From NCBI GenBank assembly GCA_944364655.1, contig CALVWG010000039.1, forward strand, positions 1 through 34,941: 34,941 nt of DNA, read 5' to 3'. The stretch comes from an uncultured Bacilli bacterium. Lineage in GTDB: Bacteria; Bacillota_I; Bacilli_A; RF39; UBA660. Shown here piece after piece: positions 1,935-34,941 of the stretch. How positions within the stretch are numbered: the first letter of the stretch is position 1; each line of letters starts with the position of its first letter. Under the pieces are notes generated by a model that saw nothing but the letters and a program-made list of their open reading frames with translations, searched no databases and was not told the DNA's origin. Both the position numbers and the translations under genes were made by a program.

Positions 1935-2567
1935 ATGAAAAAATATCGTTGTAAAATATGTGGTTTCATTTATAATGAAGCCAAAGAAAAAGTGAAGTTT
2001 GAAGATCTTCCAGAAGATTGGACTTGCCCTTTATGTGGTGCTCCAAAAGAAATGTTTGAAGAAATTATAGAAGAAACATCTCAAAAATCTCAAGAGCAAA
2101 ATGAACAAGGAAATGATACGGATGATTTAAGAATTTTATCTAATTATGAAAAAGCTTTTATTTGTTCAAACTTAGCTAAAGCTTGTGAAAAAGAATATAA
2201 GGAAGAAGAAAAAATTTTGTTTGAAAATCTTGCCAAAAATTTTTTGAGTACTGAAAAAGAACGTTCAAGTGATTTGAAAAGCTTACAATCAAAAATAGAA
2301 GAAGACATTAAATTATTTGAAGAAGCTATGCAAGTTGCCGATGAATTTAACGATCGAGGCGCAAAAAGAGTAATAAATTGGGCATCTAAAACTGCAAATA
2401 TTATGAAAATGTTAGTTGAAAATTATCGTCAAAAAGGATTGGATTATATTACAAATAATAAAATTTGGGTTTGTGACATATGCGGCTTTGTTTACATTGG
2501 CGATGAACCACCAAAAGTTTGTCCTATTTGTAAAGTACCAAGTCTTAAAATATTGGAGGTGATCTAA
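1935..2567 (+). CDS. Rubredoxin with second C-terminal rubredoxin-like domain
   Basis: A 210-residue iron protein. The N-terminus is a classic rubredoxin, with CxxC pairs at C6/C9 and C31/C34 binding one FeS4 centre. The last 33 residues (from W178) form a second rubredoxin-like domain of the short type that ends rubrerythrins (C180/C183 and C196/C199). The middle (about 55-170) is helical and charged. It looks like a worn-down rubrerythrin helical bundle without the usual clustered ExxH diiron motifs, so oxygenase or peroxidase chemistry is doubtful and electron transfer more likely. The start has GGAGAAG just upstream. The stop is directly followed by the ATG of a ferredoxin gene, so the two are probably translated together and partner in electron transfer, plausibly for oxygen or peroxide detoxification in an anaerobe. 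Confidence 0.8.
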   Translation: MKKYRCKICGFIYNEAKEKVKFEDLPEDWTCPLCGAPKEMFEEIIEETSQKSQEQNEQGNDTDDLRILSNYEKAFICSNLAKACEKEYKEEEKILFENLAKNFLSTEKERSSDLKSLQSKIEEDIKLFEEAMQVADEFNDRGAKRVINWASKTANIMKMLVENYRQKGLDYITNNKIWVCDICGFVYIGDEPPKVCPICKVPSLKILEVI

Positions 2568-3059
2568 ATGGGAAAAGTATATGCCCATCGAGATTTAAAA
2601 ATTTGTACTAAAGATTGTCTATGTCTTTTTGTATGTCCAACAGGCGCAATTAATAATGAAACTGGTCAAAAAAATCAAAAAAAATGTATTGGTTGTGGAG
2701 CTTGTGCCGCTGCTTGTCCAGCTCATGCTATTTCATTAATACCTGTAAAAATGCCACCTCAACAGTCAAAAAATTCTAAAGTGATTGAAGCTTTACAAAA
2801 AATAGTAAAAAACAAAATTGAAGAACTATGGCAAATTCAATATCTTTTAAATAAAAGCTCATCTGCTGATGAAAAAAAATTCTTAAAAGCGTTATATCAT
2901 TCTAATAAAGTTGTCTTAGAAGATATAATGCGTGAAAAAGGTTACATGCTTCCTGAAAGCAAAAATACTCAAATTTTTTTACAAGATATATTAAAAAATA
3001 GCGCCGAAAATAAAGATATAATAGAAAAATTGTTAGCTTTAATTGAACCAAATGAATAA
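2568..3059 (+). CDS. 2x[4Fe-4S]-type ferredoxin with helical tail
   Basis: A 163-residue protein starting one base after the stop of the rubredoxin gene, with GGAGGTG as ribosome binding site. The first ~55 residues are a bacterial-type ferredoxin. The second cluster is canonical (C40-x2-C43-x2-C46-x3-C50-P). The first is spaced unusually as C13-x3-C17-x-C19-x3-C23-P, so the ligands of that cluster are less certain. The remaining ~100 residues are charged and helical, with no domain I can name. Coupling to the upstream rubredoxin suggests a short electron-transfer relay in the cytoplasm. Probably a cotranscribed pair. Confidence 0.8.
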   Translation: MGKVYAHRDLKICTKDCLCLFVCPTGAINNETGQKNQKKCIGCGACAAACPAHAISLIPVKMPPQQSKNSKVIEALQKIVKNKIEELWQIQYLLNKSSSADEKKFLKALYHSNKVVLEDIMREKGYMLPESKNTQIFLQDILKNSAENKDIIEKLLALIEPNE

Positions 3060-3136
3060 ATTCTTTTTATTTAAATACTATATAATTTATAACAGAATAA
3101 TATAAATAATAAAAAAAACAAAAATTTATTGAATTA

Positions 3137-3309: not shown

Positions 3310-3654
3310 TCATTTTTTCTTTTGCTTTTTTAATACATAAGGTTTATTATTTTTTTCGCTTGGTTTGACTAAAGAAATACTTGAATATTCTCCAGCAAAA
3401 ATTCTGAATAAAGCACTACTAATACAATCATCAAATACTGTTTTTAAACTTCTAGCACCACTTTGCTTTAAAATTGCAAGATCTGCTATATATTCAATAA
3501 ATTCATCATTAAAATCAAAATTTACATTTAGTATACCAAATAATTTTTTATATAATCGGCTAAAATCTGATTCTTTTAATATTTTAATTATGCCTTTTTT
3601 TGATAATGGATTCATAGGTATTATTTTAGAAAATCGGCCTATTAATTCTAACAT
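3310..3654 (-). pseudogene. ClpX C-terminal fragment
   Basis: A 114-residue minus-strand frame aligns by eye with the small domain of ClpX. It has ELIGRF (ClpX EFIGRL), then KKGIIKIL, a spaced LYKKLF segment, and SGARSLKTVFDD matching the sensor-2 region KTGARGLRSIIE. The AAA+ core with Walker A/B, the zinc-binding domain and the arginine finger are absent. An in-frame stop lies four codons upstream of the ATG and there is no ribosome binding site. It is best read as a decayed ClpX or ClpX-like copy. The plus-strand frame at 3365-3667 over the same bases shows no family features. Confidence 0.65.
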
Positions 3655-20962: not shown

Positions 20963-21042
20963 AAAATAGATTATAAGAAAATCTTAAGAATTTAGATGGT
21001 TTAAAATATATATTTTTGCCAAAATGTAATTGGAGTGATGTT

Positions 21043-22014
21043 ATGGCATTATTTGAAAAATTTACAGACACAATTTTTTTAAAAAATGATAGTAATTTAG
21101 AAAACATTATAACAACTTTACAAACAATTTATGAAAAAAATCCATCAAATTATTTAATTGAAAAAGATTTAGCTCTTTTTAAAAGAGGCTATAATGGTGA
21201 AAAAGAAATAGAATATGAATTAAAAAATGCTAATATTGGGATGTTTGTTTTAAAAGATATTAATTTGCAGTATGAAGATTTAACTGCACAAATAGATTAT
21301 GTAGTTGTAACAACTGGAAAAGTTTACTTAATAGAATGCAAAAATATGGTTGGAAATATAAGAGTTAATGAACGAGGAGACTTTATAAGAGAAATATTTG
21401 ATAAAAAAGAAGGAATTTATTCACCTTTAAGACAAGCTGAAAGACATGTTGAGATATTAAAAAAAATATGGCTTTCTAGAAGCAATTTTATTAAGAAATT
21501 TTTTGCTGAAGAAAAATTTGATTATTGGTATGTACCCTTAGTTGTTTTTGCCGATTCTAAAAGTATTTTAAATACAAAATATGCTCCAAAATATATTTTA
21601 AATAAAGTTGTTAAATCAGATCAATTAGTTAATTACATTAAAAATGATTTAAAAAAAATAGACAAAAGTTTATTAAGTGGTAAAAAAAAGACAGAAGAGA
21701 TAGCTAAATCAATTTTAGCGTTACATACACCAATACAATATAATTTTAAAAAATATGAAACCATAAACAATAGTTTTTCTACAATTAGAAACAAATTAAT
21801 AGAATTTAGAAAAAACAAATCAAAAGAAAAAAATATTCCACTTTATTATATTTTTAGCAATGAAGAATTAGATAAAATAATTAAAACTATGCCAAAATCA
21901 ATAAATGAATTAGAACATCAAAATATATTGTCAAATATTAAATTAAGATGCCATGGCAAAGAAATAATCGATATTATTAATCAGAATTTAGGAGATTTAA
22001 ATGAATCTGAATGA
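21043..22014 (+). CDS. NERD (nuclease-related) domain protein
   Basis: A 323-residue protein from ATG 21043 with GGAGTG upstream. The NERD domain covers about residues 48-170: GYNGEKEIEYEL (E53), QIDYVVVTTGKVYLIECKN with D85 and E98-x-K100 matching the D...ExK pattern of endonuclease-like folds, then YSPLRQAERHVEILKKI. These residues are intact, so DNA binding or cleavage is possible, although NERD proteins are seldom characterised. The C-terminal ~150 residues are helical and unrecognised. The stop overlaps the next gene by 14 bases, so it is coupled to a UDG-like gene. A DNA repair or DNA-processing partnership is plausible. Confidence 0.85.
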   Translation: MALFEKFTDTIFLKNDSNLENIITTLQTIYEKNPSNYLIEKDLALFKRGYNGEKEIEYELKNANIGMFVLKDINLQYEDLTAQIDYVVVTTGKVYLIECKNMVGNIRVNERGDFIREIFDKKEGIYSPLRQAERHVEILKKIWLSRSNFIKKFFAEEKFDYWYVPLVVFADSKSILNTKYAPKYILNKVVKSDQLVNYIKNDLKKIDKSLLSGKKKTEEIAKSILALHTPIQYNFKKYETINNSFSTIRNKLIEFRKNKSKEKNIPLYYIFSNEELDKIIKTMPKSINELEHQNILSNIKLRCHGKEIIDIINQNLGDLNESE

Positions 22015-22651
22015 ATTAAAAAAGAAATACGATACTTTACAAAATAAATTTGGCGATAAAAATTTAAATGCTATTTATTTTGGCGGCTGTGAAAATAACC
22101 CTGATTTTTGTTTTGTTTTTGTAAATCCAACTGGTCGAAGCATTGCCGCTGATAAAAATTGGCAAGGAATAAAAGCGCCTTGGCTAGGCATTAAAAACGT
22201 TTGGAATTTATTTTATGATCTTGGCTTTTTAAGTGAAAATATTTATAAAAAAATAAAAGAAACAAAATCATCTTCTTGGACAGTAAATCTGGCTAACCAA
22301 ATATATGAAGAATTAAATAAAAATAAGGTTTTTATTACTAATTTAGCTAAGTGTACGCAGATTGACGCAAGACCATTAAAAGATGAAATATATCAAAAAT
22401 ATTCGCCACTTTTTTTAGAAGAAATAAAAATAGTAAATCCTAAAATAATAATTTTATTTGGCAATCAAGTAAGTAGAGTTGTTTTAAATCAAAAAATTGC
22501 CGTTTCAAAATGTCGTAAACAATTTTTTAAAAAAGAATATAAAAATAAAACTTATAAATTTTATCCCGTCTATTATCCAGTAGGCAATGGAGGATTTAAC
22601 TATAAAAAAGTAATTGAAGATCTTAATTGGATTATTAAAGAAGAAAAATAA
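22001..22651 (+). CDS. Uracil-DNA glycosylase superfamily protein
   Basis: A 216-residue protein. FVFVNPTGRSIAADKNWQG and KAPWLG near residues 38-62 match motif A of UDG-like proteins. VFITNLAKCTQIDARPL is a middle block, IIILFGNQVSR a core strand, and YYPVGNGGFN takes the place of the HPS-type motif B. Catalysis is uncertain because motif B lacks the usual His. It overlaps the NERD gene by 14 bases, with AGGAG as ribosome binding site. It is the second UDG-fold protein within 3 kb, suggesting a base-repair concentration. Confidence 0.75.
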   Translation: MNLNELKKKYDTLQNKFGDKNLNAIYFGGCENNPDFCFVFVNPTGRSIAADKNWQGIKAPWLGIKNVWNLFYDLGFLSENIYKKIKETKSSSWTVNLANQIYEELNKNKVFITNLAKCTQIDARPLKDEIYQKYSPLFLEEIKIVNPKIIILFGNQVSRVVLNQKIAVSKCRKQFFKKEYKNKTYKFYPVYYPVGNGGFNYKKVIEDLNWIIKEEK

Positions 22652-25610: not shown

Positions 25611-26324
25611 ATGTTTGAATTAAAAAGTAAAACTTTAACAGAATATTATGGAAAAGTACCAAGAAACTACGATTTAAAATTTTTACATTATCAGATTGAC
25701 TTAGCGAATTTAAATCCTTTAGAATTAGAATTTTTAAGTAAAGATTTGGATAAAATTTTTGAACATATTGGCAAAAAATATTTTAAAATATACTTTTCAA
25801 ATTTAACAACATTAAAAAATGTCATGAAAAATACAGCAATTATCTCAAAATATCAAAAATTTATTTATGTAAAAATAAGAAGTGAAGGCGAATTTTTAGA
25901 ATTAAAAAATGATATAAAATGCTTAAATGTAAAAATAATTGTTGAATTAAAAGATTTAAATATTTTTTTAAACCATATTGATATTCCGTATGAATTAATT
26001 GTGCAAATAAATACAGTTAAAGAACTTCCACATCAAGCTTTAGAAAATTTAAGAAAAAGGTTTGATATTAAACAAATTTTAGTTGGGCAAATATGTTATT
26101 TATCCAATTATTTCTTACCTTTTCTTAAAAAAATGGCAAATGAATTTAATATTAATCCCAGCGATTATTTAGAAATAGAAAAAAACGTTTTAATATCTAA
26201 TGATTTTTATAGTATAGATGATTATAAAAGAGTATTAAAAGAATTAAAAAAGTTAATTTTAGAAACAACAGATAAAAATAGTGAATATAAAAATTTTCAA
26301 ATAGTATATGAAAAAAATTGCTAA
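25611..26324 (+). CDS. Upstream part of a frameshift-split transglutaminase-like gene
   Basis: A 237-residue frame with no family name I can give. It is charged and alternates strands and helices (KCLNVKIIVELKDLNIF). Its C-terminal stretch EYKNFQIVYEK has the style of the helix that precedes transglutaminase-like cores, and then the frame ends a few codons later at TAA 26322-26324. The next frame (from 26308) continues with KIAKEISYNWAG, the natural sequel. The two frames meet at A7 (26311-26317). Removal of one A would give a single protein of about 361 residues. The gene starts seven bases after the MGMT-like stop. Confidence 0.6.
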   Translation: MFELKSKTLTEYYGKVPRNYDLKFLHYQIDLANLNPLELEFLSKDLDKIFEHIGKKYFKIYFSNLTTLKNVMKNTAIISKYQKFIYVKIRSEGEFLELKNDIKCLNVKIIVELKDLNIFLNHIDIPYELIVQINTVKELPHQALENLRKRFDIKQILVGQICYLSNYFLPFLKKMANEFNINPSDYLEIEKNVLISNDFYSIDDYKRVLKELKKLILETTDKNSEYKNFQIVYEKNC

Positions 26325-26697
26325 AGAAATCTCTTATAATTGGGCTGGTTTAGAAAATGATACTTTAGAAAATCAAAATTTAATTGGTGGGTTATTTAGT
26401 AAAACCTGTGTTTGTGAAGGGTTTACTAAAATTTTACAACAAGCTTTAAGTTTAATTAATATTTCTTCTATTGTTGTAGGGGGAAACAGCCCAAAAGAAG
26501 ATGGTGGTCATTTATGGAATCAAGTAAAGATAGAAGGCAATTGGTATAATACTGATATAAGTAAAGATTCTTTATTAGTTCACAATCAAAAAGATTTTGA
26601 GAACTGTTTGGTAAGTGATCAATTTGCCTTTTTTACTAATTACCCCATAGCTAATGAGTGTCCAAATTCCTATGAAAATAATTTGAAATTAAAATAG
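26308..26697 (+). CDS. Transglutaminase-like catalytic part (C/H/D) in shifted frame
   Basis: A 129-residue frame carrying an intact transglutaminase-like triad: C36 in CVCEGFTKILQQ, H68 in DGGHLWNQVKIEG, and D83 in WYNTDISKD. This is the common bacterial form (C-x-G, H-x-WN, W-x-x-D). As written it starts at ATG 26308 inside the end of the upstream frame without a ribosome binding site. That suggests translational coupling, RNA-polymerase slippage on A7, or a recent frameshift of one ancestral gene. The core before the cysteine is short for a stand-alone enzyme, which supports the fusion reading. An intrinsic terminator follows at once. Confidence 0.7.
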   Translation: MKKIAKEISYNWAGLENDTLENQNLIGGLFSKTCVCEGFTKILQQALSLINISSIVVGGNSPKEDGGHLWNQVKIEGNWYNTDISKDSLLVHNQKDFENCLVSDQFAFFTNYPIANECPNSYENNLKLK

Positions 26698-26779: not shown

Positions 26780-29665
26780 ATGAAAAAATATTTAGAAAAA
26801 TTTATTAAATTGTTTTTAGTGCTTTTAATAACATTGCAAATATATCTACCAGTTTATTTAGTTGATGCAGTAGAATTTCCAGAAGTAATTAAAGTGCCAG
26901 AAGTTAGCAAAGGAAATTTAAACGCTGAAGGAAAATATGAAATTTTATTAACGGATATAAATCCAACAGGTTACAGTGCTGATACATATTTAAAAAATGT
27001 AAATCTTAATAATGAACCATTACAAATAATAAATGGTAATGATTTTGAAACCCAACAAAACGGCATTTTTACGAAAGCTAATTCGAGTTTTTTCTACACA
27101 GATGTACAAGAACAGGGTTATGAATTTTTTGAAGCTTATGTTGGCTTAGACAAAAGTTCATTAAATACAGATGCTTCAATTACTTTTTATATTTATTTAG
27201 ATGGCGTTTTGGCATATGAAAGTAAAGAAATAAAAAGTGGAAGCAAAATAGAACATATTTATTTGGATATTAGTAAATCAAAAGTTATTCAATTAGTTGT
27301 TAAAAACAATAATAATTCAAAATATAATTACGGTGTTTGGGGAAATGCTAAGTTTATTAAAAGTGCCGCATCACCTTATTTAAAAGTAGCTGATTTAGAA
27401 TTTAATTTACCAGCACAAGTTACAGAAAGTAATATTTTAGAATATGTAAAAGCTTACAGTGTATCTGGCAAAAATTTACATGATGATATAGTTTATAAAA
27501 CAGATTACAAAGAAGGGCTTACTGGAAATTTTACAGTTACTTATACGGTTACAGATGAATTTGGCAATAAAAGAACTAGAACAGTTAGTATGATTGTAAC
27601 CGGAGAAGATTATAGCCACGAATTATCCTTAGATAGATTAAAAAAGCCTTGGGCATCTTACTTATATCATGGTAGAAATACTCTTAGTATTGAAGGTCAA
27701 AAAGCTTGGGATGTTATCCTAAAAGAAGTTTTAGATTTTAAAGCAAACAAATGGAAGCAAGTTAATAGATGGGGAACAGATTGCTATCTAATAGATATTG
27801 ATTTACAAGCTTTAAATATTTTTGTTTCAAAAGAAGAATTAACTAATTTAGTTTACATGTTTCAAGATGATGAACCTCGTTCATTTATTCTTCCTGATTG
27901 GGATACAGTTTTAACAATGAACAATGGATTAGTTTCTCATGTAAATATATATGCTCGTAAAAATTTAGCTGATAATCAAGATTATTGGTTAGAAAAAATA
28001 GAAGCTAACACTGTCAATATGCTATCTGAAAGTAAAGAAGATATGAATGAGGCTCAAAGAGTATACTACGTTTTAAAAAAATATGCTGGCTGGATTCAGT
28101 ACACAAGTGGCCAACAATTACATGAAGCATTAGGCTTAGGTCATTCTGTCTGTGGCGGTAATGCAAGAGGTACAGTTTTCTTAACCGAAAGATTAGGCGT
28201 AAAAAGTGTTTTTGGTCGAAGTGGCCCTCATGCTTGGACTTATACAAAATTATATAATTATGATGCTTGGTTTAAAAATGATTTATTAGCAGGACCAGCT
28301 ATTTTGGTAGATGCTAATTCTAGCAAACATAACATGCTTGTCGGAGGCAATTATTTAAATAGACATTATGAATGGTTTTCTTTTAGTGATAAAGATTATC
28401 CAAGAGAAAAATTTAAATATCCTTCAGTTTGGCTTACTTTAGATAATTCAAATATTTTAGTTCTTCCTAAAAACAAACCTTACAATTTACTTGATAACGT
28501 TGTTGATTTTGGAAGTATTTATGAAGACAATTTAGTCAAAGAAGATATAAATATTACAATAACAAAACTTGACGAATTTGGTAATGTTGTAACTTCTAAT
28601 TGGGAAGGACTTAAAGAATCATCTGATGGTTCTGATTTAAAAGCAGGGGATTATATAGTAACTTATACATTAATTTCAAATAAATTAGAGGCAACAGCTA
28701 CCAAAAAAGTCCGAGTTACAAGTGGTGAAGAAGATTTTTTGAAGTTAAAAGATTCTATTAATAAAGAAGGTAACATTAAAGAAAATGAATTAGTTGGTTT
28801 ATGGAATGGTACAGAAGAAAAATGGTATCAAGATGCAATTGAAACATATGAAAATGCTAGTATTTCATTTGATTTAAGTAAGGACGATTATCGTTATTTG
28901 AATTTTGATTTTGGTATTAAAAATAGTGTTCGTGAAAATACAAGTTATGGTTTTTATGGCAAAGTTATGATAGAAGTAGTAATTGATGATAAAGTAATTT
29001 ATACAAGTTCTATTTTAGGATGGAAAGATCATTACGAAACTATAACTTTGCAAATTCCTGAAAATTCAGCAAATTTAAAACTAAATGTTTTAGCTAAAGG
29101 AGACGGTAATAATCACGCGGCAATTGGTAATTTAGCATTAATTGTTGATGATGGAAGTGTTGAAGAAATTATTGAAGAAGAACCAGAAAAGCCAGTAGAA
29201 CCGCCTGTAGAGGAAAATCCAGACATTCCAGAAAATCCATCAATTGAAGAAAAACCAGAAGTTCCAGAAAATCCGACTATTGATAGTCCTTCTGAAAATA
29301 CCAATGAAGATAAACAAGAAGAACAATCAAATGAAATAGATCAATTACCAGAAACAAATAATTCCCCTTTAGAAAATTCAGATAATAATCTTGAAAATGA
29401 AGTAGAAAATAATGAAAACAATTCTGCAAATAATGCAAACGATAATCAAAACCAAGAAAAAGACGAAAATATATCAGAAGAAGATGAAACAGTTAATAGT
29501 TCTAATAATAATCAATTTGATTCTTCTTCATCAACTGAAGTAAAAAAAGATCTTCAAAATAATTTTTATAATAATATTTTCACAATTATAATTATTGGAA
29601 TCGCTGTTGTAAGCGCACTATTGATAATAATTATTTTAAGAAGAAAAAAGAGTAGCAATTACTAA
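26780..29665 (+). CDS. Secreted, membrane-anchored transglutaminase-like surface protein
   Basis: A 961-residue extracellular protein. An N-terminal signal sequence (about 1-31, FLVLLITLQIYLPVYLVDA) is followed by an NPCBM-like carbohydrate-binding region (about 45-195). A bacterial Ig-like domain follows (FTVTYTVTDEFGNKRTR). The transglutaminase-like core has C458 in GHSVCGGNARG, H484 in SGPHAWTYTK and D511 in ILVDANSS. A short Ig-like stretch and a second NPCBM-like domain come next (about 670-795). A Pro/Glu- then Asn-rich spacer (about 800-920) leads to a C-terminal helix and RRKK stop-transfer. LPETN occurs in the spacer, but too far from the helix to be a sortase site. The fold suggests a wall- or glycan-binding enzyme acting on surface proteins or mucus. 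GGGGGGAG precedes the ATG. Confidence 0.82.
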   Translation: MKKYLEKFIKLFLVLLITLQIYLPVYLVDAVEFPEVIKVPEVSKGNLNAEGKYEILLTDINPTGYSADTYLKNVNLNNEPLQIINGNDFETQQNGIFTKANSSFFYTDVQEQGYEFFEAYVGLDKSSLNTDASITFYIYLDGVLAYESKEIKSGSKIEHIYLDISKSKVIQLVVKNNNNSKYNYGVWGNAKFIKSAASPYLKVADLEFNLPAQVTESNILEYVKAYSVSGKNLHDDIVYKTDYKEGLTGNFTVTYTVTDEFGNKRTRTVSMIVTGEDYSHELSLDRLKKPWASYLYHGRNTLSIEGQKAWDVILKEVLDFKANKWKQVNRWGTDCYLIDIDLQALNIFVSKEELTNLVYMFQDDEPRSFILPDWDTVLTMNNGLVSHVNIYARKNLADNQDYWLEKIEANTVNMLSESKEDMNEAQRVYYVLKKYAGWIQYTSGQQLHEALGLGHSVCGGNARGTVFLTERLGVKSVFGRSGPHAWTYTKLYNYDAWFKNDLLAGPAILVDANSSKHNMLVGGNYLNRHYEWFSFSDKDYPREKFKYPSVWLTLDNSNILVLPKNKPYNLLDNVVDFGSIYEDNLVKEDINITITKLDEFGNVVTSNWEGLKESSDGSDLKAGDYIVTYTLISNKLEATATKKVRVTSGEEDFLKLKDSINKEGNIKENELVGLWNGTEEKWYQDAIETYENASISFDLSKDDYRYLNFDFGIKNSVRENTSYGFYGKVMIEVVIDDKVIYTSSILGWKDHYETITLQIPENSANLKLNVLAKGDGNNHAAIGNLALIVDDGSVEEIIEEEPEKPVEPPVEENPDIPENPSIEEKPEVPENPTIDSPSENTNEDKQEEQSNEIDQLPETNNSPLENSDNNLENEVENNENNSANNANDNQNQEKDENISEEDETVNSSNNNQFDSSSSTEVKKDLQNNFYNNIFTIIIIGIAVVSALLIIIILRRKKSSNY

Positions 29666-32058: not shown

Positions 32059-32676
32059 ATGAAATGTTTAGGTAGTTGTACAATAGAAACTGATAGATTA
32101 ATTTTAAAAGCTCAAACTATGGATGAACAATATTATTTATGGAAAGTATTAATGATTCCAGAAGTTAACAAATATTTTTTAACTGTACCCCAAAGATTTA
32201 GAGAAAAATTATTGGATTGGAATCTACAAAAAGAATATTATGAAAAAGATATGGAACATGCTAACGATAAAAATGTATTTAGATGGAGCATATTTTTAAA
32301 ACAAACTGGTGAATGTATTGGACGTCTATCTTGTCATGAGAGAAATGTAGAAGATGATTCTATTACTGATCCAAGTATAAGAGGCGTTGGATGGTTAATA
32401 GATCCAAAATATCAAGGACAAGGATATGCTACTGAAGCTGCTAAAGCAATGATAGATTACATGTTTTTAAAATGTGGAATTAAAGAAATTATTACAGGAG
32501 CAGCTATTGTAAACAAACCTTCTTGGAAGATAATGGAAAAATTAGGCTTTGAAAGGGCAAATAGAACTCGTATGGTACAGTATACTTTTGTTGATGGATT
32601 AGTAGAAACTTTTGAATATATTCTTACAAAAGAAAAATATTTAGAATTTAATGAATCCAAAAATATAAAAAAATAA
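32059..32676 (+). CDS. GNAT acetyltransferase (RimJ/RimL type)
   Basis: A 205-residue protein with TIETDRLILKAQTMDEQ at the N-terminus, the acetyl-CoA loop GWLIDPKYQGQGYATEAAKAM (Q/R-x-x-G-x-G/A), and NKPSWKIMEKLGFERANR, all typical of RimJ/RimL-like GNAT enzymes. They acetylate N-termini, amino groups or small molecules; the substrate is not predictable here. Single gene with its own promoter. It lies between the left (31809) and right (32729) parts of repeats that are contiguous at 33344-33495, so it may have been inserted into a copy of that cassette. Confidence 0.88.
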   Translation: MKCLGSCTIETDRLILKAQTMDEQYYLWKVLMIPEVNKYFLTVPQRFREKLLDWNLQKEYYEKDMEHANDKNVFRWSIFLKQTGECIGRLSCHERNVEDDSITDPSIRGVGWLIDPKYQGQGYATEAAKAMIDYMFLKCGIKEIITGAAIVNKPSWKIMEKLGFERANRTRMVQYTFVDGLVETFEYILTKEKYLEFNESKNIKK

Positions 32677-33534: not shown

Positions 33535-34230
33535 ATGAGTCAAGAAATAAATAATATTAATAAAACCTTGCAAATTACGACACATGATTTTTTAATATAT
33601 AGAGATTCTAATAATAATGTTAAAGTTAGTGTAATGTTAATAAATAATGATATATGGCTTACCCAAAATCTAATTGCAGAATTGTTTGGTGTAGGAAGAA
33701 GTACAATTACTGAACATATCAATAATATTTTAAATAGTGGAGAACTCGATGAAAAAAACACCGTCGGAAAAACCGACGTTAATAATTCTAAAAAGCCTGT
33801 AAAGATATATAACCTTGATATGATTATTGCCGTTGGTTATCGTGTAAATTCGAAAAAAGCAACTAACTTTAGAATTTGGGCAACAAAAATTTTAAAAGAG
33901 TATATGATTAAAGGCTTTGTTATGGATGATGAAAGATTAAAAAATCCTGAGTTTGTCTTTGGTGAAGATTATTTTGATGAACTTTTAGAACGTATCAGAA
34001 ATATTCGCTCTAGTGAGAGAAGATTTTATCAAAAAATTACAGATATATACTCTTCTTGCAGTATAGATTATGATAAAAATTCAGATATAACTAAAGAGTT
34101 TTTTAAAACAGTTCAAAATAAGTTACATTATGCAATAACCGGTAACACTGCTGCTGAAATTATATATGATAGAGCAGATGCAAATAAAGAAAATATGGGG
34201 TTAACGAATTGGCTAAATTGTACCAAATGA
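33535..34230 (+). CDS. RhuM-family protein, C-terminally truncated
   Basis: A 231-residue product matching the N-terminal two thirds of RhuM-type proteins: DIWLTQNLIAELFGVGRSTITEHI (KilA-N/helix-turn-helix-like), KPVKIYNLDMIIAVGYRVNSKKATNFRIWATKIL, ERIRNIRSSERRFYQKITDIY, and YAITGNTAAEIIYDRADANKENMGLTNW. Full-length members run to about 330 residues with a further helical domain, missing here: the frame ends at TGA 34228-34230, right after the GLTNW motif. The protein may be non-functional or trimmed. RhuM genes are common on islands and near toxin or restriction genes; no function is established. Its position next to an IS1182 element suggests the tail was lost by insertion or deletion. Confidence 0.78.
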   Translation: MSQEINNINKTLQITTHDFLIYRDSNNNVKVSVMLINNDIWLTQNLIAELFGVGRSTITEHINNILNSGELDEKNTVGKTDVNNSKKPVKIYNLDMIIAVGYRVNSKKATNFRIWATKILKEYMIKGFVMDDERLKNPEFVFGEDYFDELLERIRNIRSSERRFYQKITDIYSSCSIDYDKNSDITKEFFKTVQNKLHYAITGNTAAEIIYDRADANKENMGLTNWLNCTK

Positions 34231-34447: not shown

Positions 34448-34470
34448 AGAAAATAGATAATCTATTTTCT
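34448..34470. terminator. Inverted repeat at the end of the IS1182 gene
   Basis: AGAAAATAGA (34448-34457) and TCTATTTTCT (34461-34470) are perfect 10-bp arms around TAA. The stem extends outward as GATGT/ACATC with mismatches. It covers the stop codon of the minus-strand transposase and may act as its terminator or lie near the element end. Confidence 0.55.
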
Positions 34471-34941
34471 ATACATCTTCTTTTCTTTTGGCTTTACACC
34501 AGGAATAACTTCTTTTTGTAAACCAAATGGCCTATCCCAATAACTTTTTTTGATTAACTTTGGATTATCTAAGAGTTTAAATAATTTTCGTATATTAACG
34601 CCTAAACATTCTAACATAAATTCACACTCAACGCTATCCATGCCACGCCTTCTAAACCTTGTATAATTCATATTTTGTTTAATTTGTCCATACGTTCCCT
34701 CAACTTGTATACTTCTATTTATTCTAATTTCAATTCCATCTGGACTTAATAAGTTTTTTCTTGCCTCATCTTTATAAGTTTCATATTTAACACTTAATTC
34801 AGCCTTTCTAAAATCTTGACTTTTGTCTTTCAAGTATTCCTTGCATTTATAAGAATATTTACAATTATCGCATCCTTCAAAAATATAAAATTTTGAATCT
34901 TTATATCTCGGATGAGTTTTAGTGAAAATATACTTTCCCAC
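34462..34941 (-). mobile_element. IS1182-family transposase, C-terminal part, runs off window
   Basis: A minus-strand frame of 159 codons extending beyond the right edge, so the N-terminus is not visible; the first codon in view is not a real start. CDNCKYSYKCKEYL resembles the zinc-type cysteine cluster of IS1182-type (DDE_Tnp_1_6) transposases. INRSIQVEGTYGQIKQNM carries the last Glu of the DDE triad, and RFRRRGMDSVECEFMLECLGVNIRKL is the conserved C-terminal helix. The visible part is intact. Its terminal inverted repeat was not identified. Confidence 0.88.

Follow-up and report, generated by a model that had tools for sequence, protein, structure and literature searches.

A transglutaminase-like gene split at a run of seven adenines in an uncultured Bacilli bacterium, probably by a recent frameshift

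Introduction

In a 34,941-nucleotide stretch of DNA from an uncultured Bacilli bacterium (hereafter the window), two overlapping open reading frames that together resemble one transglutaminase-like gene meet at a run of seven adenines (A7). The question is whether such a junction is a device by which one gene gives two products, a boundary between two genes, or the scar of a mutation or an assembly error. A preliminary description, made from the sequence without database searches, had proposed the first of these, with RNA polymerase slipping on the A7 run. The draft genome, which is 82% complete, has 1,193,952 bases in 127 contigs; the window is its contig 39 and has a G+C content of 25.2%.

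Results

The upstream frame, ORF A, occupies positions 25611-26324 of the plus strand and encodes 237 amino acids, predicted to form an N-terminal alpha/beta domain and the start of the first core helix. ORF B, at positions 26308-26697 of the same strand, encodes 129 amino acids covering the rest of the transglutaminase-like core; it has an in-frame ATG at 26308 and the N-terminus MKKIAKEISYNWAG. The two ORFs share 17 nt, and the frame of ORF B is +1 relative to that of ORF A. ORF A ends in IVYEKNC followed by a TAA stop codon at 26322-26324, and frame B is shut upstream by a single TAG at 26302-26304; therefore, the switch falls between the two, in the interval 26302-26324 within which both frames are open. 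The A7 run (26311-26317, plus strand) is the sole long homopolymer inside this interval, and the frame of the relatives matches another run length at this site. When the two ORFs were aligned with the homologues of the relatives G034 and G017, the halves met without a gap at VYEK/IAKEI, ORF A corresponding to residues 1-234/235 of these homologues. The anatomy and the positions given in the preliminary description agreed with our re-reading of the ORFs, and its claim of a clean join at the A7 run was borne out by this alignment. An A7 run is not unusual in itself, as the listed ORFs of the window hold 46 A7, 16 A8, and 2 A9 runs on the plus strand.

To see how the gene is laid out elsewhere, as the preliminary description had suggested, ORF A and ORF B were each searched in 195 genomes, the own genome included. 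ORF A was found in four of them, namely the own genome, G017 and G034 of the same genus, and G078 of the same family. Both halves lie in a single open frame in G034 and G017 (369 and 367 codons, respectively), and the identity to the G034 homologue was 59% for ORF B and 45% for ORF A. A scan of public genomes yielded 35 loci, 16 of which were read. A single frame ran across the match in 15 of the 16, apparently including G034 and G017, and the split one was apparently G078. An additional full-length, single-frame copy was present in a goat ileum genome (L041), and the 12 distant loci read (L043-L054) were all single frame. A profile search of 386 genomes of the family added two copies, those of G484 and G390, of which the G484 copy (L180) is intact with 355 codons open. 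The two-ORF layout was seen in none of the 18 homologous loci read besides the window (the 16 from public genomes, G484, and G390), and one scan of viral contigs found no relative. Distant homologous matches in a 0.7-Mb genome of the same class (L010, contig 1 of G140) contained an in-frame TGA, as would suit a genetic code in which TGA specifies an amino acid. A literature search that combined phase variation with transglutaminases and homopolymeric tracts gave nothing on this gene family among the matches listed.

Four of the close copies, which number seven in all, are intact (G034, G017, L041, and G484) and encode one protein of about 360 amino acids spanning both ORFs; the fused gene that the preliminary description had expected in relatives was thus found. 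Because these four close relatives have one protein matching both ORFs, ORF A and ORF B are, as judged from the homologues, one gene carrying an indel. The other three copies are broken, each differently: the copy in the window at the A7 run, the G078 copy (L076, contig 68, about 2000-3070, minus strand) by a frame change at a TA repeat some 85-95 residues in, and the G390 copy (L181, contig 29, about 1390-2250) by a lesion that left the N-terminal domain partly missing and the remaining pieces in different frames, which looks like an out-of-frame internal deletion in the N-terminal part. The breaks of G078 and G390 thus lie at sites other than the A7 run of the window. Homologues intact in one frame and a frame change that is not conserved at its site make up the pattern of a simple frameshift or pseudogene, and three different lesions in seven copies indicate that a dispensable gene has been lost repeatedly. 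A transposase-like gene, recognized by eye, lies directly upstream of the G390 copy.

The family and the fold of the protein were then considered. ORF B gave a weak match to the Pfam family Transglut_core (PF01841), with an E value of 2.7e-4 and a score of 21.6 bits, under the 23-bit cut-off; the scores of the relatives fell on both sides of this cut-off (19.9 for G034 and 16.9 for L053; 27.8 for G017, 29.1 for L041, and 40.8 for L049). ORF A by itself matched no family of Pfam or NCBIfam. The sole NCBIfam match was to the MAG6410-family lipoproteins, membership of which was not accepted because the scores of 57-60 bits fell far short of the cut-off, 450, and the G034 homologue had no match in PHROGs or PADLOC. 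A model of the G034 homologue, built with an 18-row alignment, was confident (pLDDT 87, pTM 0.89). Its core matched Streptococcus pyogenes TglA (9crn) with a Z score of 18.8 and an rmsd of 4.5 over 195 aligned residues, and the transglutaminase 4xz7 with a Z score of 13.1 and an rmsd of 4.2 over 146 residues; both structures were also matched via Foldseek, and the profile match to 9crn had an E value of 9.2e-13. The core fold therefore seems to be common to these enzymes and the G034 homologue, although the identity to TglA is 16% and the N-terminal domain considered here lies mostly beyond the matched range. Three residues conserved in the alignments, C36 (26413-26415), H68 (26509-26511), and D83 (26554-26556) of ORF B, all on the plus strand, are candidates for the catalytic Cys, His, and Asp of the transglutaminase motif; their conservation and the weak Transglut_core match support this assignment. 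Within the window this set is confined to ORF B, so that the preliminary description had rightly placed the triad in the downstream frame. The predicted core fold together with the Cys-His-Asp set would place the intact G034 homologue in the transglutaminase-like superfamily. In its model, the junction of the two ORFs corresponds to residues 234/235, inside the predicted helix 225-239. Hence, ORF A alone stops within this helix without any catalytic residue, and ORF B alone is without its first half. By eye, the protein has no surface or secretion signal; its core is common to surface-type enzymes. The next gene downstream (26780-29665) encodes 961 amino acids with an NPCBM domain (E 6e-30), a hydrophobic C-terminal tail, and, by eye, a transglutaminase-like Cys/His/Asp stretch of its own, and two transglutaminase-like genes may thus adjoin here.

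The translation starts were compared by scoring 29 starts of the window for the Shine-Dalgarno (SD) duplex with an anti-SD sequence. The start of ORF A scored -6.0 kcal/mol. In the case of ORF B the value was +1.7 kcal/mol, the second worst of the 29, and no ribosome-binding site was recognizable. Two working products are unlikely on these grounds, because the break falls within a predicted helix and ORF B has no recognizable ribosome-binding site.

For the A runs, the 422 ORFs of at least 100 amino acids in 53 pieces of the own genome (508,795 bases) were compared with an expectation from 100 shuffles of synonymous codons within genes. The sense A7 runs were 616 against 530 expected (ratio, 1.16) and the A8 runs 203 against 222, whereas the A9 runs were 12 against 54 (0.22) and those of ten or more 3 against 56 (0.05). 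The T runs dropped from T8 on (20 observed against 40 expected). Thus, avoidance of A runs in these ORFs sets in at nine, and A7 is not avoided. The same threshold of nine was found in a large share of genomes, according to Baranov and colleagues (PMC1088944); such avoidance could also stem from replication slippage. Restoring the frame at the A7 run would require a one-base deletion in the RNA. Traverse and Ochman (PMC5574713) describe slippage in runs as mostly insertions, with deletions seldom associated with runs; this association was weakest in E. coli and more frequent in Buchnera. No A run of six or more was present at the equivalent place in any of six relatives; G017 has six As slightly upstream of it and G078 five As slightly downstream.

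The soundness of the assembly was assessed by a scan for split genes over the same 508,795 bases, with stretches of G048 and three contigs as the reference. An ORF was matched when it covered at least 70% of a reference protein in one frame, which gave 182 ORFs; the number of split genes is a lower bound, since the scan overlooks frame changes close to the end of a gene, as well as genes that have no relative in the reference. The 182 ORFs hold 331 sense runs of at least seven As, namely 246 A7, 79 A8, 5 A9, and one A17, and only two split loci were found, the present gene and a GNAT acetyltransferase gene on contig 4. A smaller scan with part of G048 had found no split among 31 matched genes. 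Neither scan gave a hint of a general homopolymer error in the assembly, and this reading was set aside. Because 331 runs came with only two split loci, the lengths of A runs in this assembly are sound in general, and the breaks occur in accessory genes; the outcome favours a real mutation at the A7 run. The split GNAT gene (L080, about 4216-4670 of contig 4) has a homologue at L074 (5896-6432); it is broken beside an A7 run, changes frame once more close to its end, and looks like a decaying pseudogene. A gene named by eye as ffh-like (L108, contig 32) contains the A17 run in frame close to its end (3514-3530), where RNA polymerase slippage would yield mixed C-termini. Elsewhere, an ATPase-like gene (by eye; L105, contig 29, minus strand, around 2643) has an in-frame TAA at an A15 run with the frame open on both sides, and contig 10 opens with 79 As (L086, 1-79), probably an assembly artefact. 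The scan flagged neither the ATPase-like gene nor the short RhuM gene described below.

Several neighbours of the gene recur near the intact copies in a different order. An S26 signal peptidase gene, the gene preceding it, and a NERD gene lie near the gene in the window, G034, and G017; the UDG-like and RhuM genes are common to the window and G017, and a GNAT gene (32059-32676) to the window and G034. The RhuM/PDC-S05-like gene (33535-34230) encodes 231 amino acids and is matched to about position 220 of family models that mostly have about 330-340 positions; hence, it is probably truncated. An ORF leaving the contig end on the minus strand (34462-34941) resembles, by eye, the end of a transposase.

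Discussion

We consider it probable that a recent single-base frameshift in the A run inactivated a two-domain transglutaminase-like gene of about 365 amino acids. The original gene would have encoded an alpha/beta N-terminal domain and a transglutaminase-like cysteine-enzyme core in one frame, and a change of one base in the length of the A run would break this frame. A ribosome that begins at the good start at 25611 would then halt after 237 amino acids, within the first core helix and ahead of every candidate catalytic residue, so that the copy in the assembly is expected to be inactive. The patchy presence of the gene, the single-frame relatives, the three different lesions in seven copies, the unconserved tract, the break inside a predicted helix, the start of ORF B without an SD, and the generally sound A runs of the assembly all speak for this reading; the gene is patchily distributed and apparently dispensable. 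Against it stands the conservation of ORF B, which at 59% identity to G034 resembles that of a living gene. We infer that the living genome carries the indel, that the indel is recent, because both frames are otherwise intact, and that the product is inactive. That neither half has a second lesion fits a very recent mutation, and it also fits an error or a switching locus.

The readings in which both frames are put to use have to be weighed against this one. If RNA polymerase slipped at the A7 run, or ribosomes shifted by +1 there, some fused protein would arise beside the short one, and the frames do join exactly at the A run. An A or T run also lies at the junction of two frames in dnaX of Thermus thermophilus and mxiE of Shigella, and RNA polymerase slippage is established on longer A runs (PMC1088944). 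However, dnaX has nine As and both of its products are used, whereas the window has seven, at a site unconserved in six relatives, where an RNA base would have to be lost. That length is not selected against in the own genome, a run conserved among homologues does not appear, deletions are rare in runs relative to insertions (PMC5574713), and the short product would stop within the predicted helix without catalytic residues. An in-frame stop-plus-SD arrangement of the prfB type was not seen by eye, and since inspection places the second frame at +1, a -1 slippery heptamer would be of no use. Slippage or frameshifting is therefore very improbable. The claim that the A7 run is prone to slippage found no support; of the proposal of one gene with short and fused products, the single gene split at the A7 run stood, whereas the dual products were not supported, although a trace of fused product may be made. 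Two translationally coupled genes encoding two subunits are still harder to credit. The ATG at 26308 sits 14 nt upstream of the stop codon of ORF A, and another pair in the window, the NERD gene (21016-22014) and the UDG-like gene (22001-22651), overlaps by 14 nt; nevertheless, the start of the overlapping UDG-like gene scores -7.3 against +1.7 for that of ORF B, which would moreover encode a protein without the first half of a predicted core helix. The two-ORF layout is not kept among the relatives read, and separate genes were rejected because these relatives have the gene in a single frame.

In the remaining readings, the gene is whole in the organism, always or at times. If the assembly or its consensus were wrong here, or if the consensus drew on mixed strains, the organism would have the in-frame length. 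The draft state of the genome, the otherwise undamaged frames, and one or more contig starts that look artefactual, such as that of the 79 As, are compatible with this; on the other hand, the only other split among 182 conserved ORFs is a decayed accessory gene, and a real A17 run in ffh was assembled in frame. Such an error is thus unlikely, though it deserves to be kept in mind. Phase variation, in which slipped-strand mispairing during replication at the A7 run reversibly switches the gene off and on, would agree with an indel in a homopolymer, a G078 copy likewise broken at a simple repeat, an accessory gene in a variable neighbourhood, and the poly-A switching known elsewhere (PMC3711429). 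Nevertheless, the tract is short, a repeat kept at one site does not appear among the homologues, hundreds of equal or longer runs lie in intact ORFs, G390 as the third broken copy has a deletion instead, and a surface or secretion signal is missing by eye, although the core is shared with surface-type enzymes. We therefore regard reversible switching at this tract as rather doubtful. A slow contingency locus, in which the copies of the gene in this family of gut Bacilli are toggled by indels at any simple repeat (the A7 run here, the TA repeat in G078), is somewhat less probable again.

The preferred reading, a recent inactivating frameshift, fits what is said of isolated frame changes by the authors of GeneTack, who put those that are not conserved down to indel mutation or sequencing error (PMC3711429). 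As in their 'singletons' and pseudogene clusters, the frame change is found in one genome with single-frame homologues, and, as in their isolated frameshifts, a poly-A run of at least seven lies at the site with no conserved recoding motif; there is no essential difference, the base in the window being that of the assembly.

If the contingency locus were true, populations would contain cells with and cells without a transglutaminase-like activity that is costly or serves as a target, and the family would exemplify phase variation among uncultured Bacilli of the gut. In a genome of 25% G+C, A7 runs occur more than once per typical gene, and finding one where two ORFs meet is weak evidence of programmed slippage; such cases can be sorted quickly by a comparison with relatives combined with a test for avoided run lengths and with the place of the break in the fold. 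The locus is mainly cautionary and looks like an ordinary accessory gene that was broken (or misread), not like a built-in switch of frame.
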